A stretch of DNA of 64,000 nucleotides, taken from contig CM061141.1 in the NCBI GenBank assembly GCA_030789695.1, positions 272,025,655-272,089,654 of the forward strand, written 5' to 3'. The position numbers and the translations under genes were made by a program. The stretch comes from Scilla litardierei. Lineage: Eukaryota > Streptophyta > Magnoliopsida > Asparagales > Asparagaceae. Below are positions 1 to 64,000 of the stretch, piece after piece. How positions within the stretch are numbered: the stretch's first letter is position 1; the number at the start of each line of letters is the position of its first letter. Under the pieces are notes generated by a model. That model ran no database searches and was not told the DNA's origin. It was given only the letters and a program-made list of their open reading frames with translations.

Positions 1-1426
1 TCACAATGGAGTGGCGACGATGATCTCATGGTCGTTCGATATGTCGAAGTCGAAGACGAGACACAGGTGATCATTGAAGAATGAGTTCACTGAACGACCC
101 CACAAGAGTTATCATATGGTTAACATTAACTAATCTGTCAATGATAACTCTCAGTGATGATAGGCAAGTTGGTCCATAGACTTGAGGTCATTGTATGAAC
201 CTGTGCGTGAACGGTGTCACTTAGATCTCTGACCTAGCTTTGAGGCAAGGCCTGTCGAAAGGTCTTTGGTTGGGTGACACTTGAAGCGTGCGAGGAGAGT
301 AATTACCAAGAATGGATTCGTCTCTCCCATTTATGGGGAGTTAGTGTCGTACATGTTAGTTTGGTCTTTAGTAAAAACACGGGCCAGATTATGTTGGAAG
401 AAGTCCAATATTATTTGAGTAAAGATCGACGAAGACTAACCGGTTTCGAGCTATCGAGGTTGACAGTTGACCATACCTTAGGCTTGGCTAAGCGACATAT
501 TTATGACGAATGGACTAAAACTGTGGTATTCATCACGGACACAGTCAGAGTGATCCCGACGACACTTTAGTCAATTGGTCATTCATGTAATTATAATGCC
601 AAACAGGGACGACACCTGCTGCTCGTGGTCACTGTCGTCTAGGGGTTTCGAGATTTTACCTGTAGTAGGGTTAGGATGTATGGTCTCAAACCGAGTAGGA
701 TTTGTGCAATTAAGGAGGAGTGCACTCGGTTGCACGTGAATAATTAGTGTAACAAAGGGTTTGTGATAATAAAGTCTAAAATAATACATCAGATGTATGT
801 GAATTAATTATGTCGTAAAAGGTTTGTAATATAGGCTAAAAGATATTAATGATATGGGATTATTGCATATGAAGCAAATAAATTAAATATGTCGCAAAAG
901 GTTTGCAAACATATTTTAGATCACATATGATGCGGTACGCACAAACGCATAGAAAAGATCCATTCGACAAAACGGGGGTCCAGGAACGGGGTCCAGGAAT
1001 GTCCTGGACCGACTGCAAAAGCTTGGGTCTGGTGCAACCCATTAGGGAATGTCATCCCACTTAGCTAGGGTTTACCCTAGTCAAAAACGGCTGGAAATTT
1101 CCAGATTATGTTTGGAAAGGGGTCAACTTTGTGGACGCATTTGTGGGGTTAAACGACCTCGAAATTGCACAAAGTTTTTTTCTATGCGTTCACCATGTAA
1201 AGTCATTCGAAACGACATATTGTATACCTTCGAGGGATCACTGGTGAGGAAGAAACAATTGCTCAATGGAAGAATGAATCTGGACTTAAATCTGTCCAGA
1301 TTCAGCTTTCTGCAGTTTTCGGGCCAACTTTAAGAGGACATTTGAGGGGTCAAACGACGTCAGAATTGAGCCTCGTTTGTTTCTAAGCATTCACTATTTA
1401 GTGCTCTTCGATTTAATATATGATAT
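1..1426 (+). mobile_element. Element H: first part of a plus-strand LTR, split by F
   Basis: This stretch is the reverse complement of a diverged version of the F and B LTRs. Shared landmarks read in opposite orientation include the block around 440-560, the block around 600-760 with the pyrimidine-rich/ATG-poor spacer, and the runs 'gcaaaaggtttgc' near 890. It continues at 20204, where the rest of the same LTR (TATA box to 3' end) is found. Between the two halves lies F, so H was the target of F. The start of H lies left of the window. No coding capacity is seen; the ORFs here are short and unrelated to any family. The element is old, judging by its divergence from F and B. Confidence 0.75.
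990..1010. repeat. Palindrome of the H LTR
   Basis: GGTCCAGGA and TCCTGGACC flank the trinucleotide ATG, giving a perfect 9-bp inverted repeat, with a further direct copy of GGTCCAGGAA just upstream. It occupies the position in the H LTR where F and B have longer GC-rich palindrome arrays. Confidence 0.7.
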
Positions 1427-1999
1427 TGAAGGGTTTCGATGGACCTACATGGCATAAAATCTATGCCCGTCTTACGTCAGACAGACGATAGAATCAGAAA
1501 ATAGCAGCGGAAAAATAATAACCTTAAACATTTTAATGAATGCCCTAAGGACATCATTAACCCTAGCCAGCAAATCTACTATCTTGGGGTGGGTCTGACC
1601 AACCCCAAAGATAGATCTAAACTACTTCAATAATATATGAAAGAATAGATAAAGTGACATACCTGGAACTTCGTTTCCACAGAATACGAAGCGTCGTTTT
1701 CAGCAACTTTCTTTCGCTCCCGAAGCAAGCCGCCTCTGTGCCACCAAGACTGGAACACCCGAAGCGAGCAAACACCGTGCCTCCGAGCCAATCACTCGTC
1801 GAAGAAATTTTCACTTGAGTACGATCCACGTCAAAGACTTTGGATCTAATCCAAACCTCCTCATCGTCTTGCTCGAATGTGAACGGAGGAATGTAAGATA
1901 TTAAGGAGGAGGGAATAATTTAAGTCTCGGCTCGAGCGTGCTCAAAACTTTTAGGAGCTACTCGAATCTGAAGACAAATTTTCCAAGGGGGTTAGCCCC

Positions 2000-2010
2000 T
2001 ATTTATATAG
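2000..2010 (-). promoter_or_regulatory. TATA box of the F 3' LTR
   Basis: CTATATAAAT on the minus strand, embedded in the near-palindrome CCCTATTTATATAGGG. The same site occurs in the 5' LTR at 18236-18245 and in B at 49809-49820, so it is conserved across the F/B group. Confidence 0.6.
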
Positions 2011-2329
2011 GGAGCCAGACCCCGTCCTCATCTCACAAGCAATGTGGGACTAAATGATTTTAGGGGGAAAAATTAAGTTAGTTTGCCTTATACTAAGGCT
2101 AAACTTCAACTAATTTCCCTCCCTCACCATTGAGCTTCGCAATTGATATAACCTATCAAATGGAAGGGCACTGAATGGTAAACGCATAGAAACAAATGGC
2201 GCTGCAATCTGACTTCCTTTGACCCCTCAAATGATATCTCAAAGTTGGGCAAAACCCCACATTTGGCTGAAATTCGCACCTGTCATTTGAGAAATTAGGG
2301 TTTCAGCATCCTGGGCCCACCATGGGTCC

Positions 2330-2600
2330 CACCCACGGGTCTGGACACGCCCAAATCGGTGGCTGGGCACCCGTTCTGGTGCATCCAGACCCGCCTGCTT
2401 AAGCGGGCGGCTGGGGCGCCGACTGGAGCGGGTTGAAAGCGTGCTAGACCTACCCGCCTGGCCTGGCGGGCATGCGTCCGCCTATTTGGGCGGGCCAGGC
2501 CCTCCCGCCTGAGCTAGGCGGGCTATCTGAGCCCATGCAGGCTGGGCTAGCCCAGCCCGCTTGGGGTACGCTGGCTAGCCCAGCCTAAGTGGATTGGGCT
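2330..2600. repeat. GC-rich palindrome array in the F 3' LTR
   Basis: A run of short inverted motifs built on CCCGCC/GGCGGG and CCAGCCC/GGGCTGG, far richer in G and C than the rest of the LTR. The homologous block in the 5' LTR is at 18545-18905 with a different arrangement of units, so the array turns over faster than its flanks. Confidence 0.75.
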
Positions 2601-5845: not shown

Positions 5846-6677
5846 TGTAGTGACCCTGTGCTTTGAGGAATAAACACTAGAGGGGGGGGGGGGGTGAATA
5901 GTGTTATATAGAATTATAAGGAATTTACGCTAAATCAAACCCTACTTAACCAACAAATGCGGAATATAAGAAATGATCAACAACACAAGCAAGAATGCAA
6001 TGCTAACATGCAATGTACCCTGGTTCGGTGCCACCCAAGTCTTCCCAACTTGTTACCGGTGCCCTACTCCAGCAACACCCGGATCACCTCCGGATACTCT
6101 AGTAAAAACCACTAGAGCTTCCTTTAGCCCACTTGCGGAAACCCGACAAGTGCAATCGACCTACAATCGATGTCCGTGTATCCCACAACCCGGGAACACG
6201 CAAAGTCCTTAATCCCACAACCTGGGACTAAGCACACTCTCACAAATCGAGAGCAAAACGAAATCTTGACTCCCACAACTTGGGATCAAGCCAATCCTCT
6301 CACCACCGTGAGTATACAACAAATATGAAGTATAAAGATTGAAATATAAAACTTCTTACCACAAAATCCTATGCCTTGAGAAATACTTACCAATATGGGG
6401 AAAGAATGGATTTTGAGGAAGATGAGATCACCAAACCCTAGCTCCACCAAGATGAGCAGCAATAGATGGCTAGGGAGAAGTTGGTGACTTGGAATCAAGC
6501 TATTAGCTTAAGAAGCTCACAAGGAATGAGAATCTCTCTTGAGGAATTAGGCTCAAAGAGTAAGAGAGAGATTCTTGTGAGATGAGAGAGCTTGGAAATA
6601 GAGTTGAATGGCTCTTCTCAAAGATGTGAAAATGTCTCTAATTTCAGCCTTGGATCCCTGGTTAGAAGCACTCAAGC

Positions 6678-6685
6678 TTATATAG
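6678..6685 (-). promoter_or_regulatory. TATA box of the G 3' LTR
   Basis: CTATATAAGC on the minus strand, repeated in the 5' LTR at 15194-15201. The palindromic array begins about 60 bp upstream of it. Confidence 0.6.
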
Positions 6686-6744
6686 GGAAGAGAGAAAACG
6701 GTCACAAAAATCGTGGCATTAAATGACCCAACGGCTCTATTCTG

Positions 6745-7395
6745 AAGCTGCTTAATCGGTCTAAGAAGGATCACTGACCGATTAGTTTTGCAACTAGTCG
6801 GTCGGTGAACCTTCTTGGACCGACTAGAAGGAAGACAGCGAAGATTGTGAATTCAAAAGATATAAGAACTAGTCGGTCTAAGAAGAAACATCAACCGACT
6901 AGTTTGACAACTAGTCGATCGGTGAACCTTCTTGCACCGACTAATTAGTCGATAGTGAAATCAAGGATATGAAGAACTAGTCGGTCTAAGAAGAACATCA
7001 ACCGACTAGTTTGATAACTAGTCGGTCGGTGAACCTTCTTGGACCGACTAATTAGTCAACAGTAAAGAAGTCGAATTTCACTAGGAGAACTAGTCGGTTT
7101 GAGAAGTAACACCAACCGACTAGATCGTCATTTAGTCGGTCGATGACCCTTCTTGGACCGACTAATAGGTCAACAAATAGTCTTGAATTGATTAGGATAG
7201 CTAGTCAGTCTGAGAAGAATTTCCAACCGACTAGATCGTCATCTAGTCGGTCGGTGAACCTTCTTGGACCGACTAATTGACCAACAGTGAATGGGCTGAA
7301 TCAAGCAAGGTTATCTAGTTGGTTCAAGAAGGATTTTCAACCGACTAGATTGTCATCTAGTCGGTTGGTTCTTCTACTTGAACCAACTAAGATAC
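6745..7395. repeat. TAGTCGGTC palindrome array in the G 3' LTR
   Basis: About six tandem units of roughly 110-120 bp. Each contains CTAGTCGGTC, a short AAGAAGG/CCTTCTT spacer and the complementary GACCGACTAG, so each unit can fold into alternating hairpins. The unit number differs sharply from the 5' LTR copy at 15265-15530, which has only two to three units. Confidence 0.9.
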
Positions 7396-8063
7396 ATACG
7401 AAGCCGAGAAACGAAGCGATAAGCTACGGGAAAGTTTCTAATGGCTTCTAAGGCAATCCTAGAGATAAGATATGAAAGTTATGAAGTTTTCTAGGCAAGT
7501 ACTACTCAAGGCTTAACATTCTACTAAACCGAAGCTAGAAGACAATAAAAGTAAACACGACAAACCGTCTTCAAGCTTCAACATGGAGAATCTGAATCCC
7601 TTGACTTCATGAATGCTCCTTGAGCTTCAACAAAGCTCCAGTCACAACGATCATGCGTTCTAAGGAAGTCTTGGGACGCCGCTTGAGATGAACAAATTAC
7701 TTTGGTGACGATCTCCATAAATCTTCATGGACTTGAGTCTTTTAGTTGAATGACTTGAGTATCTCCAACATCATAGTCTTCGAAGCTTTTGACTCATCCA
7801 TTCCTTTCTTCTCTTTGGATTGAATCTCCATTCATTTGTTGATGCCATTGGCTTGAGGTTTGAGGTAGCCTTTGAGTTCTTCAAGCCAATGCTTCACCTT
7901 TATTGATCTACCAAGTTCTCCACTTGAAACAACACGTGTAGTCACTTTTGATCTTCTTGAATCTAATTGGTGACTTTTTAGCTAACTGCAATCACAAGAG
8001 TTAGTCACAATGATTTGCGTTTGATCATCATCAAAATCAAGGTGAAGAGTCCAATACTCAACA

Positions 8064-8078
8064 TTCTCCCCCTTTTTG
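8064..8078 (-). other. G polypurine tract
   Basis: On the minus strand CAAAAAGGGGGAGAA lies directly before the 3' LTR start TGTTGAG. Similar purine runs preceded by GCCAAAG or near matches recur through the interior (near 8131, 8354, 8460 and 12053). Confidence 0.8.
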
Positions 8079-11000
8079 ATGATGACAAACCAAATATAAA
8101 CAAAACAAATAATTGTGCATTAAATATATTTACTCCCCCTGTAATGATGCCAATCAAGTTAATATCAATAATCAATAGCATCATTCAGCAGTTAATAGTG
8201 TGTGTACCATATGAGGTTGTGTATATATCGCATGAATGACCAGAATTAATATGCGTACACAATACAAATCATATAGGTGATACGCATCATAAACATGAGC
8301 ATGATTACCAATATATATATGATGTAATCAGTATAAACCAAGGTAATCACCAATGCTCCCCCTGAATCATATACATGAACGATCATACATAAAGTCTATA
8401 TGATTCAAAGTTATTGTTTAATACTCAAAAATTAATAAGCGCTTCCTTTGTTTATTTCTCTCCCCCTTTGGCATTAACAAAAAAACAAACATGGGGGTAT
8501 AGAAACAACAAATGCAACAATAGAGTGGAAAACATTAAGGTATATCAATTGTAAAGTTCGCTAATGTAAAGTTACCAATTGAAAACAAGATATCAAAATA
8601 AAGATATCAATTGCAAGAGTACATATCCAACAACAACTCAACTACCCTCAATTATCACAAAAAGATAAGCAATAAGCATACGTGATAAAAGATTACAATA
8701 GATGCTAACTGTGAAGAGTAGTGTGAGCAGTGTTAGAAAAGTTACAATGCAAAAATCATGACATCACTTGTGAAAGAAAAACAAGTGATCAAATAGTGTC
8801 AAATACCCAAACAAACTCAATTATCACAAAATTTATAACATTAAGCATAATGTGATAGACTGTCTTGTGATACCAATTGTATACTTGGCAAGATATATCA
8901 AGCATAATTTAGTGCATGGAAAACAATTCTATGTTTTCATACAAGCAAATCTATTTAATCAATATAATTGTCGAGCGACGAAGTAAACAAATATGACTAT
9001 GGAAATTCTTAACCATGTGTACAAAGTTATGATATAATAACACACATTAAGTATAATGGTATGAGAAACCAATTGTAGATATATTAAGTCATCTCCAAAA
9101 GTATCTCCAGCTAAACTTCCACAAAGCTTCTCCAAAAGTAAGCATACCAAATATAAGTGAAGTGTGCGATGTGGGGTGACAAGGTGATACAATGAAAATG
9201 AATATCGAATATCTATATCACGCAAAAGTGTTATGCCAAAATAAAGATAGTAAGTTCATAAAACGTATGGCATACACAATTCTAGCACACTAGGATACTA
9301 ATTGAAACAATGTTCAAAAGAACCATAGTACTAGCATGCATTCCAAAATAGATACTCATATAATGAGTCAAAGATAAGCATGGAATGCCATGAGCATAAG
9401 GAAGATAAGCACTATATCATACGCTCAAAACTAGCATCAAACAAGATCATGTAAAGATGATATCCAATATAAATAGTCTAACAATTGTAAATATGGTACC
9501 AAATGTAAATATGATATGTAGAGATGATACCAATTGTAGTCTAACAAAGTATGCAAAGCAGGCAAATCATGACATCACTTGAGAAGGAAACCAAGTGAGC
9601 AAATAGAGACAAGATCTCATCCTAGCTCAATTATCACAAAGGATTCAACATGAGGCATACTGTGACAAAACATCTTTAAAGCAAGGGCATGAAGATAGTC
9701 TACGTTCACAGTCACAAGGTAGGACATAAACGAATAGAGTTATCATGAACATCGCAAGCATGCATACCAATTGTGCGAATAGAATAAAAAGACTTGTGTA
9801 AGCACAATATAATCGGAGGTAGCATCAAAGAAGTCATAGTGCATCAAGATATCTTCATGGAAGAATATCTATGACAGAATATACATATCATCAAACACAA
9901 TACAAAACGTATATGATTCTGTATAGCACAAGTTATCTCTAACATCTCAAAAAAATAGCATAAAATGAGCATGAGATGAGAGAAGACAAAGTGAGAAATA
10001 TAGCTTGAAGATCACTAACTAATATGAATGAATGTTATGTCACTTGTGAAAATATCATACATGATATATTTAGCTATAGACATGAAAGATCTCTTGAATA
10101 AAAATTATAGCTAAGCATCAGTCATGAAGTAATTAAAATGACAAGTAACATACATTGATAACCCCAAATCATATCAATATGTCTCATAAAGATAATCATA
10201 CAAACCATAAGAAAAGTATGAGATGTGTGGTGATACAATGAATAAATATGCATAAAGATCATAAATCATTAATCTTATACATGGCATGAATTATGTATAA
10301 CGTGATGAGGAATAGCATGCCATAAAGAAATGAATCTTAAATGAAAGAATTGAAAAAATTTCAATGAAGGTTAAGATCAATATACTTAATACAGTCTAAT
10401 AAACAAGCAAGCATGTCATACACATCAGCTATTATATCCATAACATATAACAATCTTCACATAGAAGCATGCATGTGAGGAATGCGATGTGTGATGACAA
10501 CGTGTTCCAAAGGTATAAACATCAATAAACGACTAACTAATTCATTAAATAAATTTTATAGCTACCCGGTACATGAGTGGTAATAAGACATATATGACAT
10601 ACATGAACAAGGTAGTCACATAAACAAACAATCTTCATGAGGATGCGACAAGAATGAGCTAATGAAGAAGTATGCTATATTACACAAATCGAATATATTA
10701 AAATACCAATTGTAAACATGGTAGTCAAAACCAATATATTAAAATACCAAGTGTACAAAACACATATTTACAACCATTTAGCTTTCCCTATATGTGTGCA
10801 TCTTCAATGTACCATCCTTTCCTTTGAATTGATCCATCATTTGTAAACCAAGGAGAGTATAGGGTAGGCATCTTGCACAACAATATGACAATTCAACAAT
10901 TGGTGGTATACAAAAACTTTTTGGATCCAATAGGTTAAGGATCAAAATCAAGTAGTCCAATAACCAATCATTTACCAATTATAAATAACACTCATCAATA

Positions 11001-12707: not shown

Positions 12708-14342
12708 TCATTCAAAAATAATATCATGAATATAAGATTGCACATACAAATCCTTAGCATGATTACTAGTGTTCTTAGGACCCCAAATAGTGTATGATTT
12801 GGGCATCCTCTTCCTAGTGGTTGCATGCACAAAAGGTTGATCTCTACGTGGTGCATGTGGCATAGGAACATGGGATCTAGCAAGATCATGAGGAAATGTG
12901 TGTGGAACATTGTGTTGTGCTAATGCATGATGATGGGCATATGATACATGGTGTGGTGTTGCATACATAGGTGGATGAATATGAGGTGTGTATGCATGAG
13001 GATGATCATGAGAATAAGCATGCATTTGTGGATGTGATGTGTGATCATAAGCATGTGAAGGTGCATGAGCATGAGTACGTGCATGAGGGTGTCTCAAATG
13101 AGTGTTTGCACGTGCTCGTGGGTGTGGAACATAAAAACCATCATTCGTGTGAACATGTGGAGTAGGAGGTGTGTTCCTACGTGGCATAATATTGGTGTAC
13201 ATGAATGCATGACCCTTCTTTGGAGGTCCACCCAAAGTGGGTTTCATTCCAAAGGAGGGAGGAATAGGAGTGGTGGTTTCTTTAGTAGTAGAACTACACA
13301 AGTTGTTATAGACACCACTCGTGGATGCACCGGAGGATGGCCTCACAAAATCTATATGTACTTCACTATAGGAGGTGCGTGAATTGGATGCACTTGCCTT
13401 AGAATAACCAAGGCCAACACGATGGTTTGCCGGTAGTTGATTCTTTAGCAAATTATCCAAATTGTCCTTTCCCTTATTGAATCTCTCAACAATGGAGGAC
13501 ATGAGCTCATATTTATTCGAAATTGAAGAAATAGTAGCATCCAAGGTGGATGCATGTGTGGTGAGCTTGTGCACTTGGGATTTGAGATCCTCATTCTCAA
13601 TGCCCAAACAAGTGTTTTGAGATTGAAGAGTTTCAATCTCAAGATCGTTACTATCCACAATGGAAACACGATCAAGTTGAGATTTGAGGGACTCCACCTC
13701 ATTTCTCAACATGCCATTTTGAGTAAGCAAACTTGCTTTCTCAATAGCGAGTGTCTCAACAATGGTGTCATTGTTAGAGGTGCTACATGAAGATGTGTTA
13801 GAGAGACTAGCAATCTTATTCTTAGCATCACAATATTTATGCATAAGCTTTTGATATTTATCAAATAATTGCTTAAGTTCAATTTTAAGATCTTCTATTG
13901 TTACCTCTTCATTGTCGCTATCACTTTCACTTGAATCGCTTGATTCGTCACTAGAGTCGTCCTCTCGTGCCATCAAACTCATGAATGAATCTCTTTCATC
14001 ATTGGAGGAAGAACACTCCGAGGTGGACTCTTCTTGCTCCGCTAGCATGTGCCATATTTGATATGCCGTTGTTGCCTTGGACACACGCATAAGAATATCA
14101 TAAGTTAAAAAATCAAGCAAGATACTCGTTACCTCTTCATGTTTCTTCACCAATTCTTTTTGCTCATTAGTCCACTTATGTACGGAAGTGGTAGGTGCGC
14201 GAAAGGGCTTCTCCACAAGCTTCCAATAATCCTCATCGATGGATTGAATATGGGCCTTCATCTTCACACACCAAATTTGATAATTGGGCCCAAGGAGATA
14301 TGGTGGAAAAGGGCATCGTGTGTTGTTGTTGTTGGTTGCCAT
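12708..14342 (-). CDS. gag: G gag, SIRE-like, internally shortened, with a histidine-rich tail
   Basis: An uninterrupted 544-codon frame begins with ATG only 26 nt inside the 5' LTR, overlapping the primer-site region. Residues 10-45 (PPYLLGPNYQIWCVKMKAHI, then WKLVEKP) fit the N-terminal domain of copia gag. After AYQIWHML near residue 104 the frame jumps directly to an acidic Ser/Asp/Glu stretch (about 120-150). It then enters a long coiled-coil region (about 150-310) ending FNKGKDNLDNLL and GLGYSK, as in SIRE-type gag. The central capsid domain usual between these parts, and a zinc knuckle, are absent. Residues about 395-510 are rich in His with Pro and Ala. Gag normally forms the particle; whether this version assembles is unknown. 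An open frame of this length in an element lacking pol is unusual. Confidence 0.8.
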   Translation of the reverse strand: MATNNNNTRCPFPPYLLGPNYQIWCVKMKAHIQSIDEDYWKLVEKPFRAPTTSVHKWTNEQKELVKKHEEVTSILLDFLTYDILMRVSKATTAYQIWHMLAEQEESTSECSSSNDERDSFMSLMAREDDSSDESSDSSESDSDNEEVTIEDLKIELKQLFDKYQKLMHKYCDAKNKIASLSNTSSCSTSNNDTIVETLAIEKASLLTQNGMLRNEVESLKSQLDRVSIVDSNDLEIETLQSQNTCLGIENEDLKSQVHKLTTHASTLDATISSISNKYELMSSIVERFNKGKDNLDNLLKNQLPANHRVGLGYSKASASNSRTSYSEVHIDFVRPSSGASTSGVYNNLCSSTTKETTTPIPPSFGMKPTLGGPPKKGHAFMYTNIMPRRNTPPTPHVHTNDGFYVPHPRARANTHLRHPHARTHAHAPSHAYDHTSHPQMHAYSHDHPHAYTPHIHPPMYATPHHVSYAHHHALAQHNVPHTFPHDLARSHVPMPHAPRRDQPFVHATTRKRMPKSYTIWGPKNTSNHAKDLYVQSYIHDIIFE

Positions 14343-14367: not shown

Positions 14368-15193
14368 GTGTGGTGACCCTGTGCTATGAGGAATAAACAC
14401 TAGAGGGGGGGTGAATAGTGTTTTATAGAATTATAAGGAATTTACGCCAAATAAAACCCTACTTAACCAACAAATGCAGAATATAAGAAATGATCAACAA
14501 CACAAGCAAGAATGCAATGCTAACATGCAATGTTCCCTGGTTCAGTGTCACCCAAGTCTCCCCGACTTGTTACCGGTGCCCTACTCCAGCAACACCCAGA
14601 TCACCTCCGGATACTCTAGTAAAAACCACTAGAGCTTCCTTTAGCCCACTTGCGGAAAACCCACAAGTGCAATCGACCTACAATCGATGTCCGTGTATCC
14701 CACAACCTGGGAACACGTAAAGTCCTTAATCCCACAACCTGGGACTAAGTACACTCTCACAAACCGAGAGCAAAACGAAATCTTGACTCCCACAACTTGG
14801 GATCAAGCTAATCCTCTCACCACCGTGAGTATACAACAAATATGAAGTATAAAGATTGAAATATAAAACTTCTTACCACAAAATCCTATGCCTTGAGAAA
14901 TACTTACCAATATGGGGCAAGAATGGATTTTAAGGAAGATGAGATCACCAAGCCCTAGCTCTACCAAGATGAGCAGCAATAGATGGCTAGGGAGAAGTTG
15001 GTGACTTTGAATCAAGCTATTAGCTTGAGAAGCTCACAAGGAATGAGAATCTCTCTTGAGGAATTAGGCTCAAAGAGTAAGAGAGAAATTCTTGTGAGAT
15101 GAGAGAGCTTGGAAATAGAGTTGAATGGCTCTTCTCAAAGATGTGAAAATGTTTCTAATTTTAGCCTTGGATCCCTGGTTAGAAGCACTCAGC

Positions 15194-15201
15194 TTATATA
15201 A
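15194..15201 (-). promoter_or_regulatory. TATA box of the G 5' LTR
   Basis: TTATATAAGC on the minus strand, in the same context as 6678-6685. The contracted palindromic array starts about 65 bp upstream. Confidence 0.6.
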
Positions 15202-15264
15202 GGAAGAGAGAAAACGGTCACAAAAATCGTGGCATTAAATGCCCCAACGGCTCTATTCTGAAGC

Positions 15265-15530
15265 TGCTTAATCGGTCTAAGAAGGATCACTGACCGATTA
15301 GTTTTGGAACTAGTCGGTCGGTGAACCTTCTTGGACCGACTAGAAGGAAGACAGCGAAGATAGTGAATTCAAAAGATATAAGAACTAGTTGGTCGGTGAA
15401 CCTTCTTGGACCGACTAATTGACCAACAGTGAATGGGCTGAATCAAGCAAGGATATCTACTCGGTTCAAGAAGGATTTCCAACCGACTAGATCATCATCT
15501 AGTCGGTTGGTTCTTCTACTTGAACCAACT
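15265..15530. repeat. Contracted TAGTCGGTC array in the G 5' LTR
   Basis: Two to three hairpin units remain, against about six in the 3' LTR. The flanks on both sides stay closely similar, so the change is confined to the array. Confidence 0.85.
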
Positions 15531-46172: not shown

Positions 46173-46181
46173 GTTTAAATA
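46173..46181 (-). promoter_or_regulatory. TATA-like site of the A 3' LTR
   Basis: CCTATTTAAAC on the minus strand, about 50 bp downstream of the palindromic array. The solo LTR has the clearer TCCTATTTATACC at 57788-57800 in the same setting. Confidence 0.55.
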
Positions 46182-46224
46182 GGAAGTGCTGACGGCTGCC
46201 CAGAAATTAGGGTTTCGACACTAA

Positions 46225-49144: not shown

Positions 49145-49808
49145 TGTAGGGAATTCGCGGTCCCTTAGGGCACAAAAACTCTAGTCCCGTCCTAAGTCGG
49201 ACGGAACATAGATACAAAAATCATTTGCAGCGGAAGAAAAACTAGTTAATCTAAATTAACAAGCAGTTAAAACAATTTTAACTTAGCCCTAAGGTCCAAG
49301 ACCCCATGCCAAGATCTATGCCGACTTGGGATGGATCTGACCATCCCAAGAAGGATCTAGCCTACTGTGATTAAACTAAACTAATGCTAATAAAATACTT
49401 TAACCACATACCCGGAATCTCAGCCCTGGAGCAGGCGAGATGTTCCGCGTCGTCTTCCGAGCTGCTCCCGTCCCACGCCGAGCCGCTCCTTGAACCGCTC
49501 CCCGAACCACTCCTCGAACCGCTCCCCGAACCGCTCCTCGAACCGCTCCGCATCCCGAGGCGATCAATCCCCGTGCCGTCGAGCCAACCACGCGCCGAAG
49601 AAATTTTCACACGAGTGAAACCTCCGCCTAGATTTAGGATCCAGAATCCGAACTCCTTCGTGGCTTTGCTAGAGCCCTCAGGAGTAAGGAAGAAATTTAG
49701 GGAGATGAGAAAATATTAATTTAAGCCTAGATCCGAGCGTGCTCCAACATTTACGAGAGCCGCTCAGATCTAGAGCTTGGGACAAGTTTTGAGGAGGGGG
49801 GAGACCCC

Positions 49809-49820
49809 TATTTATATAGG
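49809..49820 (-). promoter_or_regulatory. TATA box of the B 3' LTR
   Basis: CCTATATAAATAGG on the minus strand. In the 5' LTR (56340-56350) the sequence reads GATATAAATAGG, so one base of the box is altered there. Confidence 0.6.
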
Positions 49821-50154
49821 CGGCGGACTCTCCCCTTTTCTCAAAATCTGATGTGGGACTATTAGTTTGAGTTAATTTAAAATCAAGTTAGTTTGCACTT
49901 CACAAAGTGCAAACTTCCGTGAATTTTAACTCCTTCACCGTTGAGCTTCAAGATCGATACAACCTATCAATCCGAAGGGTGTTCAACGGTGAACGCATAG
50001 GAAAAAACCGTTCGTCAATCGGAGTTCGTTTGACCCTCCAATTGAGTGTCCAAAGATCAACCAATGGTTAGTTTTTCGCAAAAACCAGCCGTCAAATCTG
50101 CCATCAAACCTAGGGTTCAGCACCCTAAGGTGGGGCCCAATCTGTGGGCCCCAC

Positions 50155-50430
50155 AGCCTCAAACCCAGGCTGACTGGGCGCCTGCCAGACCTGGGCACGG
50201 GCGCCCAGGTCGGGTACGGGCGCCCAGGCGCCCAGGCGCGGGCGCCCAGGCGGTCGCCTGGGCTCCCAGGCGCCAAGGCGGCCCGCCTGGGCGCAGGCCC
50301 AGGCGCTGGGCGCCTGGGCCTGTGCCCAGGCCTGCCTGCCTGGGTTCCTGGCTCAGCCAAGTCTGGCCAGGCACCCAGGCCAGACTTGTCTGGTCTGGGT
50401 CAGCCTGGGCTGACCCGGTCTGATCTGTTT
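50155..50430. repeat. GGCGCCCAGG palindrome array in the B 3' LTR
   Basis: Dense inverted units of GGGCGCC(C/T) and CCTGGGCGCC in both orientations. The matching block at 56690-56920 in the 5' LTR differs in unit order and is shorter, although the flanks are nearly identical. Confidence 0.88.
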
Positions 50431-51723
50431 GGCTGTTTTGGCTCTAACTTGAGCATCCGGTGTCCGATTTGGACGCCGTTCGAACCTGGGTCTAGACCGG
50501 GACATTCCCGTCTTACCCGTGTATTTTTCCTTACGTTTATTTTATTAAATATTGTATTAAACAATTTAATACACATTTAATCGCTTTTGCATCAAATGCA
50601 AAATAGTCCCTATCTGGGCTTAAATTACCATATTGCATCAAATGCAATTATTCCATCCCTTGCATAAAAAATGCAATTATTCTCCCTAACTAATTTCTAC
50701 CTATTACTAGACGAAGAATCGCACTCTGTGTGAGACCCTACAGCCTGACCCTTACAACAGGTTGGGCTCGAAGCTCTATACGTCAGTGACCACTAGCAGT
50801 GGTTGGCGTCCCTGCTTCCGGAATCATCATTATGTGGTTAACTCATTGACATGAGTATTATCGGGACCACCCTGAATGTTTTCGTGATGAATTCCGTAGT
50901 TATAGTCTTTTCGTCTTAACTATGTCGTGTAGATCAAGTCTAGGGTACGGTCAAAACTGTCAACCCCAATAGCTTGACTCCGGTTAGTTTCGATCGATCT
51001 TCAGTCAATAAATGTTGGACTTCTTCCAACATACTCTGTGCAGAGTTTTTACTAAAGACCGAACTAACTCTACGACACTAACTCCCATTGACCGGGAGAG
51101 ACGAATCCTCTCTTGGTCATTACTCGTCTCGTACGTTTCAAGTGACACCCAATCAAAAAACCTTTCGATGGGCATTGCCTCGAAGCTAGGTCAGTTGATA
51201 TAAGTGGCACCGTTCACGCACAGGTTTGTCAAAATGACCTCAAGTCAAAAGACCAACTATCCTATCATCACTCAGAGTTATCACTGACAGATTGGTCAAT
51301 ATAACCATATGATAACTCTAGTGGATCGTTCAGTGAACTCATTCTAATGAGCACCTATGTCTCGTCTTCAACTTCGCCAAGTCAAGCGATCGTGAGATCA
51401 TCGCCACCGTTAAACGGTGAAGACTAAGACACAATGGTCTATCTGATGTTTCGATATCCTTGTCTCGGAACATCTTCGACCACGAACCATTTTAGACTTA
51501 TGCTACAGACGGTCAAACGTTTCTCCATGATCGAGATACTCATCTCGATACCCGTTTGACCTTGCATAAAGTCTCAGGACTTTACCTAAGTTGATATTTA
51601 ATGTTAACTACATTACAATATAACTTAGATAAATTATTACCAAACAACTTACTGTTATTTCGAACAAGATGTTTGTGCTATTCACACAGGAATAAATGGC
51701 CTCGAGGGCATCATATTCCTACA

Positions 51724-51737
51724 TCTCCCACTTGCAC
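51724..51737 (-). other. B polypurine tract
   Basis: GTGCAAGTGGGAGA on the minus strand, identical to F's. Confidence 0.8.
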
Positions 51738-55697: not shown

Positions 55698-57339
55698 CTG
55701 TAGGGAATTCGCGGTCCCTTAGGGCACAAAAACTCTAGTCCCGTCCTAAGTCGGACGGAACATAGACACAAAAATCATTTGCAGCGGAAGAAAAACTAGT
55801 TAATCTAAATTAACAAGCAGTTAAAACAATTTTAACTTAGCCCTAAGGTCCAAGACCCCATGCCAAGATCTATGCCGACTTGGGATGGATCTGACCATCC
55901 CAAGAAGGATCTAGACTACTGCGATTAAACTAAACTAATGCTAATAAAATACTTTAACCACATACCCGGAATCTCAGCCCTGGAGCAGGCGAGATGTTCC
56001 GCGCCGTCTTCCGAGCTGCTCCCGTCCCACGTCGAGCCGCTCCTTGAACCGCTCCCCGAACCGCTCCTCGAACCGATCCGCATCCCGAGGCGATCAATCC
56101 CCATGCCGCCGAGCCAACCACGCGCCGAAGAAAGTTTCACGCGAGTGAAACCTCCGCCTAGATTTAGGATCCAGAATCCGAACTCCTTCGTGGCTTTGCT
56201 AGAGCCCTCAGGAGTAAAGAAGAAATTTAGGGAGATGAGAAAATATTAATTTAAGCCTAGATCCGAGCGTGCTCCAACATTTACGAGAGCCGCTCAGATC
56301 TAAAGCTTGGGACAAGTTTTGAGGAAGGGGGGAGACCCCTATTTATATCGGCGGCGGACTCTCCCCTTTTCTCAAAATCCGATGTGGGACTATTAGTTTT
56401 AATTAATTTAAAATCAAGTTAGTTTGCACTTCACAAAGTGCAAACTTCCGTGAATTTTAACTCCTTCACCGTTGAGCTTTAAGATCGATACAACCTATCA
56501 ATCCGAAGGGTGTTCAACGGTGAACGCATAGGAAAAAACCGTTCGTCAATCGGAGTTCGTTTGACCCTCCAATTGAGTGTCCAAAGATCAGCCAACGGTT
56601 AGTTTTTCGCAAAAACCAGCAGTCAAATCTGCCATCAAACCTAGGGTTCAGCACCCTAAGGTGGGGCCCAATCTGTGGGCCCCACAGCCTTAAACCCAGG
56701 CTGACTGGGCGCCTGCAAGACCTGGGCACGGGTGCCCAGGCGCCCAGGCGCGGGCGCCCAGGTGCCAGCCTGGCGCCAGGCGCCCGGCGGGCGCCCGGCC
56801 CAGGGCGCCTGGGCTCCCAGGCGCCCAGGCCCGCCTGGGCGGCCCGCCTGGGTTCCTGGCTCAGCCAAGTCTGGCCAGGCACCCAGGCCAGACTTGTCTG
56901 GTCTGGGTCAGCCTGGTCTGACCCGGTCTGATCTGTTTGGCTGTTTTGGCTCTAACTTGAGCATCCGGTGTCCGATTTGGACGCCGTTCGAACCTGGGTC
57001 TAGACCGGGACATTCCCGTATTACCCGTGTATTTTTCCTTGCGTTTATTTTATTAAATATTGTAACGACTGCTTTTCATGTATCTGGATTTATTATAATA
57101 TAATATATGTTTTGGTGGATTTTCTCCTCTTGTGTGGTTTTCGTCTCCATAACTTTCATTTTCGATCGATTCGTCGTATTTTCCTCGTTTCTTCCTTAGG
57201 ATTGTCGATTTCGAAGCAAGTCATTTGTGACGGGCTTCATAACGGTCGTATCTTACTATTAGATCAAGCCTAGGAGTCTTAGGAATCGATCCCGGGGCCC
57301 CGCGCTCCGTATCGGTACTTTTGGTGCTTATTAGCCGGT

Positions 57340-57750
57340 GTAAGAAGGGGCACCGACCGACTAGATGACGATCCAGTCGGTCGGCAATCCTTCTCGGACC
57401 GACTAGTTAGCTTTCTAAATTTCTCAGGAGTTACTGTTTATCGTTAGTCGGTCTAAGAACGTTGGTTGACCGACTAGGTTGCAAACTAGTCGGTCGACAA
57501 TGCTTCTTTAACCGACTAACACATCATCTAATTTTAGTATCAGTTACTGTTTACTCTTAGTCGGTCTAAGAACGTTCATCGACCGACTAGATGCTAAACT
57601 AGTCGGTCAGTATTTGTTCATGGACCGACTAAATCTAAATCCTATTTTCGTTCAGAAGTTACTGTTTACACTTAGTCGGTCTGCGTTGGTCGACCGACCG
57701 ACTAGTTGCCAAACTAGTCGGTCAGTGGTTGCTCTTTGACCGACTAATCT
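57340..57750. repeat. TAGTCGGTC array in the solo LTR
   Basis: Eight or more arms of AGTCGGTC and GACCGACT in alternating orientation, ending about 40 bp before the TATA box. Confidence 0.9.
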
Positions 57751-57789
57751 GTGTTAAAACCCTAATTTCTGGGCAGCCGCCAGCCCATC

Positions 57790-57798
57790 CTATTTATA
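57790..57798 (+). promoter_or_regulatory. TATA box of the solo LTR
   Basis: CTATTTATACC on the plus strand, followed by a C-rich leader. Confidence 0.65.
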
Positions 57799-60686
57799 CC
57801 CCTCCCAAACGTTTTCTTCCTCCTCCACTCGACCCAAAACCTTAGTTTCTCCCCCATTGAGCCCCCATCTTCCTCCAAGACCTATTCCTTCATCCCAAGC
57901 CCTAGATTCATCATCTAAACCCTCCATCCACTCATTCTACCTCTCATTTTCCCCAAATCTCCATCAAATCCCCAAAATCCCCCAAAAACCCCAATTCTCC
58001 AAACTTCTCCAATCTTTTCCAGATCTGATCCTAGGGTTCTCCGGAGTGTTTCTTCCGTTTCCTCTCGGTAAGAAATCGACCTCTTGACGTTTTTATATCC
58101 TATTTGTATTTTTATGAAACCCTAATGAAATTTCATGTTGTTTGATGTTTGTTTCCCCATAACAGCGATTTCCCCCGTAGATTAGCATCCGCGAGACGAA
58201 CCTTCGTGATCGTCATTCCCGGTGCTAGGCAAGTGAAACTTGCCACTTATGGTTTAGGCCATGTTTTAGGCCATTTGCTTGTTGTAGGCGTAAAAGAGGC
58301 TAGGTGACGAAATGATACTCGCCTAGGCGTAAATTGGGGAACTAGCTTGACAACGAAGCTAGTCCCGACATATATCATGTTGCACAATTACCATGTCATG
58401 TTTACTTTCCATTAACGGTACGCGAATTAATTGTCATGTCATTGCATACTTTAAGTGCTTCTGTGATTGCGTAGCTTCGCTACAAATGCTTGTGTTCCTG
58501 GCTCGTGTTCCAGAAGCGGGCCATGTGTTGGTTGATAGCCAATGCCCGAATTGCTTGTTTTCGGCTAGGTGCACCCCTACGCCAAATGTTTAAGAATGCG
58601 AGCTCATGTGCGGGGCAACCCCGGCTCACTTGCTGAGCTCATGTGCGAGGACCCTGGCTCCATTACGTGTGGGTATTGGGGGTAAGAGTTAAGCGGCCAA
58701 TCAACTGGGAGTCTGCCCGATCAGCAACTTCAGTGGTAAGGCGTAAACTCTGGGTTTGGGGTAGTGTTAAGCGGCCAATCAGCGTGAATGTGAAACCATT
58801 CAGCTGTAAGGCGTAAACATATACAAACAACGTGAATAGTGAATTGATTGAGCTTGATAGTAGCTTGGCTACTCTTGTCTTGTCCCGATGATTGTTCTCT
58901 GGTACAAATTTTCTTGCCATGTCTTGATTGTGCACTCATGTTATAACTGCCATGTCATGCATACTATAACTGCTAGGTTGCTAGTTGCCTTACCTTCAGT
59001 TTCCTTGCCCAAGTCTTTTAGACTTGCTGACATGTGCCCCTTTACTCTTTTGGGTGACACATGTTAGATCCTGAGCCTGAGTACCTTGTTGAGGACGAGG
59101 TGTTTGCTGACGCCGAGCCCGAGCTTGTGTTTGACGGGGAGTACGTGGACACTGGGGACCAGTCCTAGTGTCTTCGTCGTGTTTTACTTTTGTTTTGACA
59201 GTTGTTTTGTTATCGGTGCGTAGCACCTATACTTTGTTATGTCGTTGCTTTGTTGGCCTTGTTCTGGGCCTTTAGACTCTTTCTTTTAGCCTGGTGGCTT
59301 TTCTGGATGTTGGACTTATTTTCATGTTGGACAATCTATGAGATGTGAGATTTTATTTCAGTCTCTCCTTGTGTTATTATTGTTGTTCCGTTGTGGTTAC
59401 AGGGACCTGCTTATGTTTTATTGACGCTTATCGGGTTTGGGGCTTCACAGCTCCACTCTCGTGCGGACCTTTTCACGTCTCGCCTCCAGTTTAGGGAAGC
59501 GGGTCGTGACAAATATTGTATTAAACAATTTAATACACATTTAATCGCTTTTGCATCAAATGCAAAATAGTCCCTATCTAGGCTTAAATTACCATATTGC
59601 ATCAAATGCAATTATTCCATCCCTTGCATCAAAAATGCAATTATTCTCCCTAACTAATTTCTACCTATTACTAGACGAAGAATCGCACTCTGTGTGAGAC
59701 CCTACAGCTTGACCCTTACAACAGGTTGGGCTCGAAGCCCTATACGGCAGTGACCACTAGCAGTGGTTGCCGTCCCTGCTTCAGGAATCATCATTATGTG
59801 GTTAACTCATTGACATGAGTATTATCGGGACACCCTGACTGTTTCCGTGATGAATCCCGTAGTTATAGTCTTTTTGTCTTAACTATGTCGTGTAGATCAA
59901 GTCTAGGGTACGGTCAAAACTGTCAACCCCAATAACTTGACTCCGGTTAGTTTCGATCGATCTTCAGTCAATAAATGTTGGACTTCTTCCAACATACTCT
60001 GCGTAGAGTTTTTACTAAAGACCGAACTAACTCTACGACACTAACTCCCATTGACCGGGAGAGACGAATCCTCTCTTGGTCATTACTCGCCTCGTACGTT
60101 TCAAGTGACACCCAATCAAAAAACCTTTCGACAGGCATTGCCTCGAAGCTAGGTCAGTTGATATAAGTGGCACCGTTCACGCACAGGTTTGTCAAAATGA
60201 CCTCAAGTCAAAAGACCAACTATCCTATCATCACTCAGAGTTATCACTGACAGATTGGTCAATATAACCATATGATAACTCTAGTGGATCGTTCAGTGAA
60301 CTCATTCTAATGAGCACCTGTGTCTCGTCTTCAACTTCGCCAAGTCAAGCGATCATGAGATCATCGCCACCGCTAAACGGTGAAGACTAAGACACAATGG
60401 TCTATCTGATGTTTCGATATCCTTGTCTCGGAACATCTATGACCACGAACCATTTTAGACTTATGCTACAGACGGTCAAACGTTTCTCCATGATCGAGAT
60501 ACTCATCTCGATACCCGTTTGACCTTGCATAAAGTCTCATGACTTTACCTAAGTTGATATCTAATGTTAACTACATTACAATATAACTTAGATAAATTAT
60601 TACCAAACAGCTTACTGTTATTTCGAACAAGATGTTTGTTCTATTCACACAGGAATAAATGGCCTCGAGGGCATCATATTCCTACA

Positions 60687-61895
60687 GAACAGGCCACTCC
60701 CTGATGGCCCTGATCTTCTCGGGATACACTGAAATACCATCTCCAGTCACCACATACCCGAGAAAAGCAACTCTGTCCAGCCAAAACTCGCACTTCGAAA
60801 ACTTAGCATACAGCCGATGCTTCCTCAAAATCTCCAACACCGTCCTCAAGTGCGATGCATGCTCCTCCTCCGACTTAGAATAGATCAGAATGTCTTCAAT
60901 AAAGATAATGACAAACTTATCTAAAAAGTCATAGAAAATCAGGTTCATCAGATTCATGAAAACTGCGGGTGCATTGGTTACACCGAAAGGCATAACCACA
61001 AACTCGTAGTGTCCATACTTCGTCCTGAACGCTGTCTTCGGAACCTCTTCCTTCTTCACCTTCAACTGGTGGTAACCATTTCTCAAATCCAATTTAGAAA
61101 ACACCCTCGATCCTCCAAGCTGATCAAAAATATCATCGATGCGAGGCAACGGGTATTTATTCTTGATGGTCACCGCATTCAACTCCCGATAGTCCACGCA
61201 CATGCGACGCGAACCATCCTTCTTCTTCACCAGCAGCACCGGTGCTCCCCACGGAGACACACTAGGGTTGATATAACCCTTCTGCATAAGCTCATCCAAC
61301 TACCTACGCAACTCTTCCAACTCTGCTGGCGCCATACGATATGGTGCCTTCGAAATGGGCTGCGCTCCTGGAATAAGATCAATAGAAAATTCCAAAGCCC
61401 GATCAGGTGCCAATCTATACATCTCCTCAGGGAAGACGTCATCAAAATCTCGCACCACAGCTGGCCTCTCCAACTCCATCTGCATAGCCACAACCTCCAC
61501 TGGTCTGGCCCGAAATCTGACAGGACCAAGCGAACTGCTACCACGGCTGAACTCAAACACTGGGTGTCCGGGAATCTCGAACACGACCTTCTTCCTCTGA
61601 CAGTCGATCGTAGCATAGAAGCTCGCAAGCCAGTCTATCCCAAGAACTGCATCGTAGTTGATGATGTCGTGGACAACGAAATCAGCGTAAAGCTCATGTC
61701 CACAAACCACCAATGAGCAAGAATTGCAACCAAGATGCACCGAGACCACGCCATTCCCTGTAACGATATTCCAACTCTTGGAAAGAGGGGACGTTGACAA
61801 GGAATGCTTCTCCACGAAGCTCCGAGAAATAATGCACATCGATGCAGCAGAGTCAAAGAGAACTCGTGCAGGAAATGTGCACACCAAAACCACAC
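60687..61895 (-). pseudogene. pol: A pol, first part: protease and reverse transcriptase
   Basis: The protease starts just after the candidate intron. Its active-site motif reads LFDSAAS, where the usual Gly after Asp-Ser is Ala. A linker leads to a TAG at 61300-61302, in place of a likely CAG. RT follows, with [56 protein letters not shown] and FIEDILIYS. The last motif normally has two Asp after the Ile; here the first, a catalytic residue, is Glu. Reading continues to the insertion of B, which leaves the frame unchanged because insertion plus duplication is a multiple of three. Both altered catalytic motifs argue that this copy was inactive. Confidence 0.9.
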
Positions 61896-62007
61896 CTACA
61901 AACAGTCTAACAATCAAGCCTTAGTCTAGCAACAATCATATGCAAGCAATCAACATAATCTAACAATCAAACATAACTAAGGAAGAAACAGCTAGGAGGG
62001 AAGTTAC
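61896..62007 (-). other. Candidate 112-nt intron between A gag and protease
   Basis: On the minus strand it starts GTAACTTCC after ATCACAG and ends TGTTTGTAG before GTGTGG. The segment is T-rich with several stops. Leaving out exactly these 112 nt links the gag-side frame to the protease frame, with conserved-looking residues on both sides. Confidence 0.65.
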
Positions 62008-63122
62008 CTGTGATAACCTCATCCATGGCCATGCTCTCCTCCTCAGTCATCAGGAAAGCCTGCCCTCTCAGCGGAACAGCCTACTGAAAGGCCTGTCTCT
62101 GTGGAACAAGGGGTGCTCCATGTCCAGCGGGCACAGGAGCTCGCTGCTGCAACGGTTGTACCGCAATAGGTGCCCGTCAAGGCTGCTTCGACTTGGGACA
62201 CTCCTTGATGGTATGGGCAGGATCTCCGCAGACAATACACTGTCCCAGGAACCTCCTACACTGATCCCTGAGGTGCCCGGTCTTGCCGCAGAAATGGCAA
62301 GTCTTCAGAATAGGCCCTCCTGGCCTCTTGAACTGAACATGTTGGATAGGCCTGAATCTAGGTCTAACCGCCGCTCTGACCTGCTCCACAGGCCTCTTCC
62401 CAGCTCCTGAAACATGTCCCTTCCTCTGGCTCAGGTTCAACTCCTGCCTCCTCGCAGTGACCAGAACCTTCTGGTATGTCTCCAGGTCAGAAGAGGTCAC
62501 AAAACTCTGAAGCTCCAAGGCAAGTCCCTGGAGGAACCGCTGAGCTTTCTCATCGGCATCTTGCACCATCTTTGGTGCAAACCGACTGAGCCTCGTGAAC
62601 TCTTGGTGGTACTGATCCACCGACAAACTCCCCTGCTTCAAATCAATGAAGCGCTGCAGCATCACCTGCTTAGCAGCCTTCGGGAAGAACTCTCCATCAA
62701 ATCTGGACTTAAAGGTAGCCCAAACTACCGGCTCCACCAGCATCTTCTCTTCAGCATCCCACCAGTTTCTAGCATTATCCTTCAGCTGCCTCTTAGCCAA
62801 ATCAACACATCCAGCCGGGTTAATCTTCACCATCGCCAGGTTATCCTCAATGTTCCGAATCCACTCATCGACAGCCAGAGGACCCTCAGACCCATCAAAA
62901 TATGCGGGACCCAGCTCCCGGCTCGGAGCGAGGGGCATCCTGGATTGCCTGACCAGCTCGAGCAAGTGGAGCGTTCTGGACTTGCAGGAGCACGCCCTGC
63001 TGCACTTGCATCATCTGAAGCATCCTCCACATCATCTCCCCATTGGTGGGTTCCCGCTCAGGCTCCTCGTCATAAGGGGGCGCACCACTACCACCACCAC
63101 GGGTGAATCGCCTTCCTGCCAT
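62008..63122 (-). pseudogene. gag: A gag
   Basis: The ATG at 63122 opens MAGRRFTRGGGSG and a short helical region. A one-base shift between about 62930 and 62960 moves to the frame of 62965-62177. That frame has the capsid motifs ELGPAYFDG, VDEWIRNIED, RNWWDAEE, FKSRFDGEFFP, LKQGSLSVDQYHQEFTRLSRFAP, and RFLQGL, followed by two zinc knuckles, CHFCGKTGHLRDQC and CIVCGDPAHTIKEC. The frame continues through a TGA at 62177 and a TAG near 62082 to the candidate intron at 62007. Motif order is typical of Tekay/Del gag. Confidence 0.88.
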
Positions 63123-63245
63123 CTAAGGACACAGAAAACGAAACAAATTAGACTCATAGCTTATGACTCGGATGTCGAACTTAGTTTATTGGACATTCTA
63201 ATATTATTATCGTTATTCTGATAATCGCAGTTACAGAAGAGACCT

Positions 63246-63266
63246 GCATGGGCCACCAACAAAACC
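63246..63266 (-). other. A putative primer binding region
   Basis: The minus strand reads GGTTTTGTTGGTGGCCCATG right inside the 5' LTR, the same as in C. The tRNA is not identified. Confidence 0.5.
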
Positions 63267-64000
63267 TGTCACGCCCCGCTTCCCTAAAATGGAGGCGAGA
63301 CGTGAAAAGGTCCACACGAGAGTGGAGCTGTGAAGCCCCAAACCCGATAAGCGTCAATAAAACATAAGCAGGTCCATGTAACCACAAACGGAACACCAAT
63401 AATAACACAAGGAGAGACAGAAATAAAATCTCAAATCTCAGAATTTGTCCAACATGAAAATTAAGTTCAACATCCAGAAAAGCCACCAGGCTAAAAGAAA
63501 GAGTCTAAAGACCTAACACACGACCAACAAAACAAACACCAACATAGTATAGGTGCTACGCACCGATAACTAAAAGTAGTCTAAAACAAAAGGGAAAGCT
63601 CTACGAGGACACTAAGACTGATCTCCAGTGTCCACGAAGTCCTCGATCAACGCGGGTTTTGACTCAGCGTCAGCAAACACCACGTCCTCAGCGACAAACT
63701 CATGCTCGGGATCTAACATGTGTCACCCAAAAGAGAAAAGGGGCACATGTCAGCAAGTCGAAAGACTTGTGCAAGGAAACTGAAAGAAAGGTAAACTAAC
63801 AACCTAGCAGTTAAAGTATGGTGCATGGCATGGCAAGTATCGTATGGAAGTAACAAGTGAAGTACAAGTAGCAAGTATCAAGTGGTAGGTGTGACATGTA
63901 TTGTCAAGTGACAAGTACAAGGGATCACCCACACACATGTGATCGCCCTATTGCCCGCAGGCTGTATTCAAGTACAAGGAATCACTCACACACAGGAAGT
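63267..64000 (-). repeat. A 5' LTR (start only)
   Basis: The first 734 bp of the plus-strand orientation match 44508-45240 with scattered substitutions. The rest lies beyond the window, so A's right target duplication cannot be checked. Confidence 0.9.

Follow-up and report, generated by a model that had tools for sequence, protein, structure and literature searches.

Blocks of short palindromes stand upstream of predicted TATA boxes in long terminal repeats (LTRs) of a 64,000-nt stretch of Scilla litardierei DNA (assembly GCA_030789695.1, contig CM061141.1, positions 272,025,655-272,089,654 of the forward strand; hereafter, the window), which consists of nested plant LTR retrotransposons. 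One such block, an ordered array of compound palindromes, was found both in a Ty1/copia element of Sirevirus type (element G) and in a Ty3/gypsy family represented by element A and by a solo LTR. The LTR of A is a mosaic across superfamilies, in which a Sirevirus-like U3 part, the putative enhancer, is joined to a gypsy downstream part. On balance, the palindrome blocks probably act as enhancer modules in U3 for a DNA-binding factor of the host, and one module was probably exchanged between copia Sirevirus and gypsy lineages. LTR pairs were obtained by self-comparison and placed by reading their junctions, with approximate edges, and TATA boxes are sequence predictions throughout. The copies that carry the common array are as follows:

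5846..8063, minus strand: 3' LTR of G (Ty1/copia, Sirevirus type; approximate edges)
6753..7389, minus strand: array of the G 3' LTR, 6 units with a period of ~113 bp, each a compound palindrome built from two repeats, 74 bp long (73 bp in one)
7408..7485, minus strand: U3 flank upstream of this array, similar to A 46658-46735 (80 columns, 70%)
14369..16013, minus strand: 5' LTR of G, its U3 end shorter than in the 3' LTR
15269-15531: array of the G 5' LTR, 2 full units plus one single repeat
44508..46909, minus strand: 3' LTR of A (Ty3/gypsy; approximate edges)
46226..46639, minus strand: array of A, 4 units, colinear with the G array; predicted TATA near 46181
57061..59511, plus strand: A-family solo LTR, an insertion within the 5' LTR of element B
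57332..57746, plus strand: array of the solo LTR, 4 units; predicted TATA near 57791

Each unit consists of TAGTCGGTC-14-GACCGACTA twice, the second half being roughly the reverse complement of the first. A scan of the window for TAGTCGGTC and GACCGACTA separated by 8-20 bp returned 15 exact matches (0.00 expected), all with a 14-bp gap and all within the G, A and solo arrays. Thirty-three repeats were then listed by hand with mismatches allowed and overlapping poorer pairings left out; 32 of them were 32 bp long and one 31 bp, and paired repeats stood 42 bp apart from start to start, about four helical turns, in 15 of 16 pairs (41 bp in one). Units followed one another at 108-117 bp in the G 3' LTR, A and the solo LTR, with spacers of 34-43 bp between the 74-bp units, and copies held from 2 to 6 full units. 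Conservation per site reached 1.73 bits in the arms and 0.74 bits in the loops, as measured on the 32 equal-length repeats of the 33. Pattern scans elsewhere yielded four viral-contig stretches and at least 118 prokaryote-genome stretches, which are presumed to be chance matches.

The likeness between G and the A family extends beyond the arms. Non-arm identity between G and A/solo units averaged 59.7%, against 25.3% when shuffled (maximum 31.7%), a count that used 7 of the 8 G units, the 73-bp unit being excluded. In a tree of 16 units, one split (96/96) set units 1-3 of the G 3' LTR, the distal unit of the G 5' LTR and the first units of A and of the solo LTR apart from the other ten, and several deeper forks had poor support. 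The order of unit types is common to G and A/solo, which points to the transfer or descent of an ordered block. The score of the G-A upstream flank was reached by none of 500 shuffles. In pairwise tests of LTR parts (local scores, 40 shuffles per pair), the U3 of G scored 203 with A and 250 with the solo LTR (shuffle maximum 28), whereas that of A scored 23 with element H, below the shuffle maximum of 33; downstream of TATA, A and H scored 401 against a shuffle maximum of 29. The LTR of A is therefore G-like upstream of TATA and H-like downstream. The remaining U3 pairs above shuffles were A-solo, F-B (related to each other) and, marginally, F-H (31 against a maximum of 30). A single motif common to all families was rejected, the U3 of D, F, B and H never rising above shuffles against G, A or the solo LTR.

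That the array crosses superfamilies depends on the assignment of both carriers, for which the following features were relevant:

8066..8085, minus strand: G polypurine tract (PPT) AGGGGGAG, adjoining the 3' LTR
12711..14342, minus strand: G gag, copia type (PF14223, E 1.1e-5, 25.4 bits, under the 27-bit cut-off)
47199-47780: A SH3_Tf2-1
48553-49164: A RNase H
60685..61299, minus strand: A reverse transcriptase (RT; PF00078, E 5.9e-35)
61303-61920: A protease
62180-63010: A gag

Judged from its sequence features, G appears to carry the hallmarks of a Ty1/copia Sirevirus. Its palindromes have a CGG-CCG core and precede a TATA box that reads CTATATAAG, near 6684, close to the published cTATAA/TAT/AAg. 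Further copies of AGGGGGAG begin at 8140, 8363, 8467 and 12061, and five of the eight copies in the window lie in the G internal region on the sense strand, in keeping with the multiple PPTs of Sireviruses. A 12-bp perfect inverted repeat starting at 8085, with arms 37 bp apart, spans the PPT/3' LTR junction, as in most Sireviruses, not all, described in PMC2829016. The junction in G reads AGGGGGAG-AA-TG, not -AT-TG; the published combined site is 95.7% identical, not 100% (PMC2829016). No CCHC knuckle was found in the gag piece at 12711..14342, a search with it found no relative at E 1e-3, and four further G pieces had no Pfam match. With regard to the Sirevirus criterion of a CpG island at the repeated motif (RM) cluster, the G array has a GC content of 0.42 and a CpG observed/expected ratio of 1.08. 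Apart from these traits, a poly-G run in the G LTR is 13 long at 5882-5894 and 7 long in the other copy (14405-14411).

Conversely, the A family does not show Sirevirus copia coding: its gag, protease, RT, RNase H and SH3_Tf2-1 are of gypsy type, and at 48214-48549 lies a weak match to an integrase zinc-binding domain that falls below cut-off. The A RT had at least 7995 relatives at E 1e-3, the named species among the 120 matches listed being mostly plants, and no relative was found in viral contigs. Its coding pieces thus place A outside the Sireviruses, despite the module that it has in common with G. The two LTRs of G are ~95-96% identical over aligned pieces and the compared piece of A is 97% identical, as opposed to ~70% between the G and A arrays, so that the exchange looks older than the insertions of G and A. 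The transfer would have run from Sirevirus to gypsy, since PMC2829016 reports such palindromes from 13 Sireviruses and the array is missing from H. That the array of A is a nested fragment of a G LTR is unlikely because the solo LTR has the same array in the same place, with flanks ~87% alike.

The first-pass annotation, made from the sequence, had placed a palindrome block before TATA in nearly every LTR family, at one common position. The other LTRs concerned are the following:

1427-3928: partner LTR of element F (F3), weak palindrome peak
17644..20204, minus strand: F 5' LTR (F5); GC-rich palindromes 18600-18899, predicted TATA near 18244
22429..24246, minus strand: D 3' LTR (Athila-type Ty3/gypsy; approximate edges), predicted TATA near 23479
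23562-23925: array of the D 3' LTR, 6 CTCGGCCGAG sites
41030..42863, minus strand: D 5' LTR, predicted TATA near 42087
42171-42555: array of the D 5' LTR, 7 CTCGGCCGAG sites
27944..30745 (minus strand) and 33926-36728: H LTRs, predicted TATA of the first at 30158
49145..51724, minus strand: B 3' LTR; GC-rich palindromes 50130-50416, predicted TATA near 49818
start at 55699: B 5' LTR copy, split by the solo LTR; array 56661-56924

Perfect inverted repeats (arm of at least 7, loop of at most 20) were scored in bins of 200 bp counted from the predicted TATA and compared with 30 dinucleotide shuffles per bin in 12 LTR copies. A density peak upstream of TATA was observed in nine of the 12: both LTRs of G, D and B, the A 3' LTR, the solo LTR and F5. 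Coverage of the main upstream bins was 24-38% in the G 3' LTR (1-3% expected; z 6.4-11.6), 19-20% in the G 5' LTR (z 7.0-7.5), 32% in A (z 9.1-9.5), 32-34% in the solo LTR (z 8.3 and 26.1), 16-24% and 21-26% in the D 3' and 5' LTRs (z 3.9-7.8 and 8.4-8.5), 22-70% and 26-60% in the B 3' and 5' LTRs (z 5.6-8.4 and 4.9-7.1), and 18-32% in F5 (z 3.8-4.9). From 40 to 700 bp upstream of TATA, coverage in these nine copies was 14-35%, compared with 2-8% downstream and 6.0% outside these LTRs. Isolated downstream bins stood out in the solo LTR (+400, z 6.8) and the B 5' LTR (+400, z 6.0). Among the 32 merged stretches listed, dense windows outside these arrays comprised 55001-55700 (AT-rich), 52551-52900 and 37401-37800, the last being an internal array of D. 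With array edges entered by hand, the arrays span 69-705 bp upstream of TATA in G, 45-458 in A, 45-459 in the solo LTR, 83-468 in D, 356-655 in F5 and 312-598 in B. The block before TATA therefore holds for nine copies, F3 being weak and H failing; the near edge lies 45-84 bp from TATA in G, A, the solo LTR and D, but 312-356 bp away in B and F5.

Element D adds a second copy of its LTR array within the element:

27354..27641, minus strand: D Athila open reading frame (ORF) fragment (PF03078, E 2.2e-6, above cut-off)
37440..37800, minus strand: D internal array, second copy of the LTR array, 5 CTCGGCCGAG sites
within 38138-39535: D protease (PF13650)
40137..40643, minus strand: D gag (PF03732, E 2.2e-20)

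D belongs to the Athila type by its Ty3/gypsy gag together with the Athila ORF; neither RT nor integrase was found among nine D pieces searched, and no relative was found for the frame at 26148-27311. CTCGGCCGAG did not occur in shuffles of the D 3' LTR and internal arrays, and similarity between the D 5' LTR array and the internal array went beyond common 10-mers (score 73, null maximum 57, 0/300). In the sense direction, the protease is followed by the internal array and then by an open piece at 36731-37081, which had no Pfam match and ends at H. The Athila ORF piece lies on the far side of the H insertion, again downstream of the internal array in sense, and the two pieces may be one frame. 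A TATA-like stretch near 37430 directly follows the internal array, in AT-rich surroundings where it may be due to chance. Left of the D 3' LTR, a second Athila ORF fragment was observed at 22179-22550 on the plus strand (PF03078, E 9.6e-6; matched part ~22197-22322).

Elements F and B are related to each other (U3 local score 507, shuffle maximum 32), and their arrays are GC-rich and simple-sequence-like. Pieces internal to F gave weak copia gag matches below the Pfam cut-off, and beside 17644 lies what we take to be a primer site of the initiator-tRNA type. No retroelement match was found in Pfam for three B pieces; B was assigned by its similarity to F, and H by LTR similarity to A. H was rejected as a further case, for it has no significant upstream array: its 14 CGGTC/GACCG motifs (12 on one strand, 2 on the other) cluster at ~29660-30040, downstream of the predicted TATA, and include CGGTCAGACCG twice, which equals the published RM palindrome of Osr8 and, on the other strand, that of Osr10. 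No open frame of more than 94 codons was listed in the H interior, which shows strong strand asymmetry at 31001-32000 (GC skew -0.50 over 1 kb). As regards the arrangement of the window, three nested layers occupy 49145-60686, where the A-family solo LTR lies within the B 5' LTR and B itself splits the A coding region between the RT and RNase H pieces. A fold-back of ~290 bp (4810-5099, 89% self-complementary) lies inside F and resembles a miniature inverted-repeat transposable element (MITE) or fold-back element.

Taken together, the cases named at the outset reduce to three independent arrays: that of G, A and the solo LTR; that of D; and that of F and B. The initial claim that motifs differ by family was thus wrong for the first group, and the shorter array ascribed to H was not borne out, both H copies failing the shuffle test upstream. 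The superfamilies do differ, G being copia and A and D gypsy by their proteins and F tentatively copia by sub-cut-off gag matches and the putative primer site; the solo LTR, however, is of the A family and F is related to B. The argument from a shared need reached independently is consequently weaker than first stated: the seven named cases come down to three arrays, copia and gypsy hold one of these in common through descent or exchange, and H falls outside the pattern.

An outline of how the arrays might act can be drawn from their geometry. Tandem symmetric sites upstream of the core promoter (TATA) would be bound by a host factor, as a dimer or cooperatively, and drive transcription of the element; in G, A and the solo LTR, each 74-bp unit presents, every ~113 bp, four half-sites (GACCGACTA or its complement) in a constant arrangement. 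Sites of this kind fit the invariant loop length and phase, the conservation of the arms and the pre-TATA position. Template switching or gene conversion would have carried the module between lineages. D has its second array copy inside the element, upstream of the Athila ORF, an arrangement reported for Sireviruses with env. For G and A alone, DREB/CBF-type AP2 proteins are candidate factors because the consensus arm contains ACCGAC, a match, one among many possible motifs, to the dehydration-responsive element core G/ACCGAC (PMC4849061); RCCGAC occurred 21, 17 and 18 times in the G, A and solo arrays against ~0.5 expected. A heat-shock-like motif in the loops, GAANNTTC, was discarded, being enriched in G alone (4 sites, symmetric and so counted 8, vs 0.9 expected), while the counts of 2 each in A and the solo LTR were reached in 92 and 77 of 500 shuffles.

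Several observations weigh against an enhancer module that was exchanged and serves these families alike. RCCGAC was found twice in the D array and not at all in the D internal, B and F arrays, so that a DREB-type factor cannot serve all families. F3 reached 28% (z 3.2) at the expected place but a higher z, 6.2 at 22% coverage, in a bin 1.0-1.2 kb upstream, and its coverage 40-700 bp upstream of TATA was 8.3% vs 7.2% downstream. Both H LTRs failed the shuffle test upstream (z 2.8 and 2.1), with higher z downstream, although raw coverage in H was 15.3% upstream vs 9.0% downstream. As for the exchange, the upstream flank was weaker between G and the solo LTR (3/500), the TATA-side flank had no G similarity (158 and 74 of 500 shuffles reached the score), G and A exceeded the shuffle maximum marginally downstream of TATA (28 vs 27), and the comparison involves one copia and one gypsy family. 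The array RNA, moreover, folds far more strongly than dinucleotide shuffles (z -27.9 in G, 20 shuffles), and arms of the small hairpins changed on both sides in 7 cells vs 2.2 (0/500), which also suits hairpins.

These last results bear on a different, rather unlikely explanation, in which the arrays act as RNA or extruded-DNA hairpins in packaging, dimerisation, 3'-end control or dicing to small RNAs, U3 being transcribed at the 3' end of genomic RNA. Folding z values were likewise low in A (-10.8), D (-9.3), B (-13.4) and F (-9.1; 100 shuffles each), but any palindrome folds strongly. Small-hairpin arms in 15 of 16 units were paired in 95.6% of cells vs 94.0%, with a covariation score of 0.112 vs 0.079 (both 0/500); such scores are, however, inflated by the relatedness of the units, pairs changed on both sides numbered 3 vs 1.5 (35/500) and further pair types 7 vs 7.4 (476/500), and a single 32-pair hairpin gave no clear covariation (82.1% paired, 74/500; score 35/500). 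Maize Sirevirus palindromes are reported to be small-RNA hotspots (PMC5311732, PMC10760457), yet in Arabidopsis PMC4977677 reports no detected genome-wide link between palindromes and targets of DCL3-dependent RNA-directed DNA methylation, and hairpins need neither a fixed 14-bp loop nor a 42-bp phase.

Little credence is given to arrays that position nucleosomes or insulate the promoter in the manner of QuinCent, a ~162-bp cryptic inverted-repeat motif in the upstream half of a gypsy LTR and also in a copia LTR (PMC11302176), because the unit with its spacer is smaller than a nucleosome and full-unit number varies. It is similarly improbable that the arrays are mainly by-products of reverse-transcription slippage, carried in U3 as neutral passengers. 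Slippage readily duplicates self-complementary DNA, full units differ between the G LTRs (6 vs 2), and the simple-sequence character of the F and B arrays and the weakness of F3 are in line with it, but the arms have remained almost identical despite divergence of the loops, 15 of 16 units have the same length although their spacers do not, and the same arms were retained in two superfamilies. Convergence of G and A on the site of one factor, without exchange, is exceedingly improbable: short CGG-CCG palindromes do occur repeatedly among Sireviruses that otherwise have little in common (PMC2829016, Table 3), and CGGTCAGACCG is present in H too, but the G-A likeness takes in loops, linkers, ~80 bp of flank and the distal/proximal order of units, and the flank alignment and the unit comparison and tree rule it out. 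Of the functions first proposed, an enhancer array for a dimeric factor thus stays the best reading of the sequence, ahead of hairpins and insulators.

A broader interpretation is offered tentatively, namely that palindromic U3 arrays may be portable promoter cassettes traded across superfamilies; a Sirevirus block would have moved to gypsy and been kept by selection, internal copies would drive a second ORF, as in D, and families would compete for or share a host activator. Families of elements are customarily defined by polymerase, on the assumption that promoters go with it. A promoter composed of copia and gypsy parts implies that regulatory sequences can evolve apart from coding ones, and this could account for distant families responding to one host signal. 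It also suggests that RM-type arrays are perhaps not confined to Sireviruses, and the presence of the same module in two unrelated promoters makes the function of Sirevirus palindromes more testable.

Palindromes before TATA in Sireviruses were already known, and one case of copia-gypsy sharing of an inverted-repeat LTR segment (QuinCent) has been published. Bousios et al. (2010; PMC2829016) described the Sirevirus RM as palindromes upstream of TATA, specific to Sireviruses and stated to be absent from classic Ty1/copia elements. The arrays reported here resemble it in their high-copy CGG-CCG-core palindromes, located in the upper half of the 3' LTR before a conserved TATA, and in the half-site CGGTC, common to the published RMs CGGTCAGACCG (Osr8), CGGTCGACCG (Vitis) and TCGGTCYCACCGA (Barbara), while the internal array of D is comparable to the additional RM copies that precede env in Sireviruses (PMC2829016). 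They differ in that the same module occurs in the gypsy A family and solo LTR, and a palindrome array with an internal copy in an Athila-type element; moreover, the G/A palindrome has a 14-bp loop within a two-palindrome 74-bp unit, and the array starts ~670 bp into the LTR in G and ~270 bp in A, compared with 200-400 bp for the published RM (PMC2829016). As far as our literature search reached, mostly outside subscription journals, two findings are new: an RM-type array that a Sirevirus has in common with a gypsy family as an ordered block, and the presence of an array in both LTR and interior of an Athila-type element. Maize Sirevirus clusters (Ji, Opie; Bousios et al. 2016, via PMC5311732 and PMC10760457) likewise form a palindrome-rich, highly variable cis region of the LTR, with a different motif (CACCGGAC-GTCCGGTG) and with small-RNA data. 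Finally, QuinCent, in RLG_Quinta and RLC_Gisela of einkorn wheat (PMC11302176), is also an inverted-repeat-rich LTR segment common to gypsy and copia, for which its authors propose gene conversion; it is, however, a single motif tied to nucleosome placement, whereas the arrays of G and A are built of multiple short-dyad units whose arms and order are conserved.

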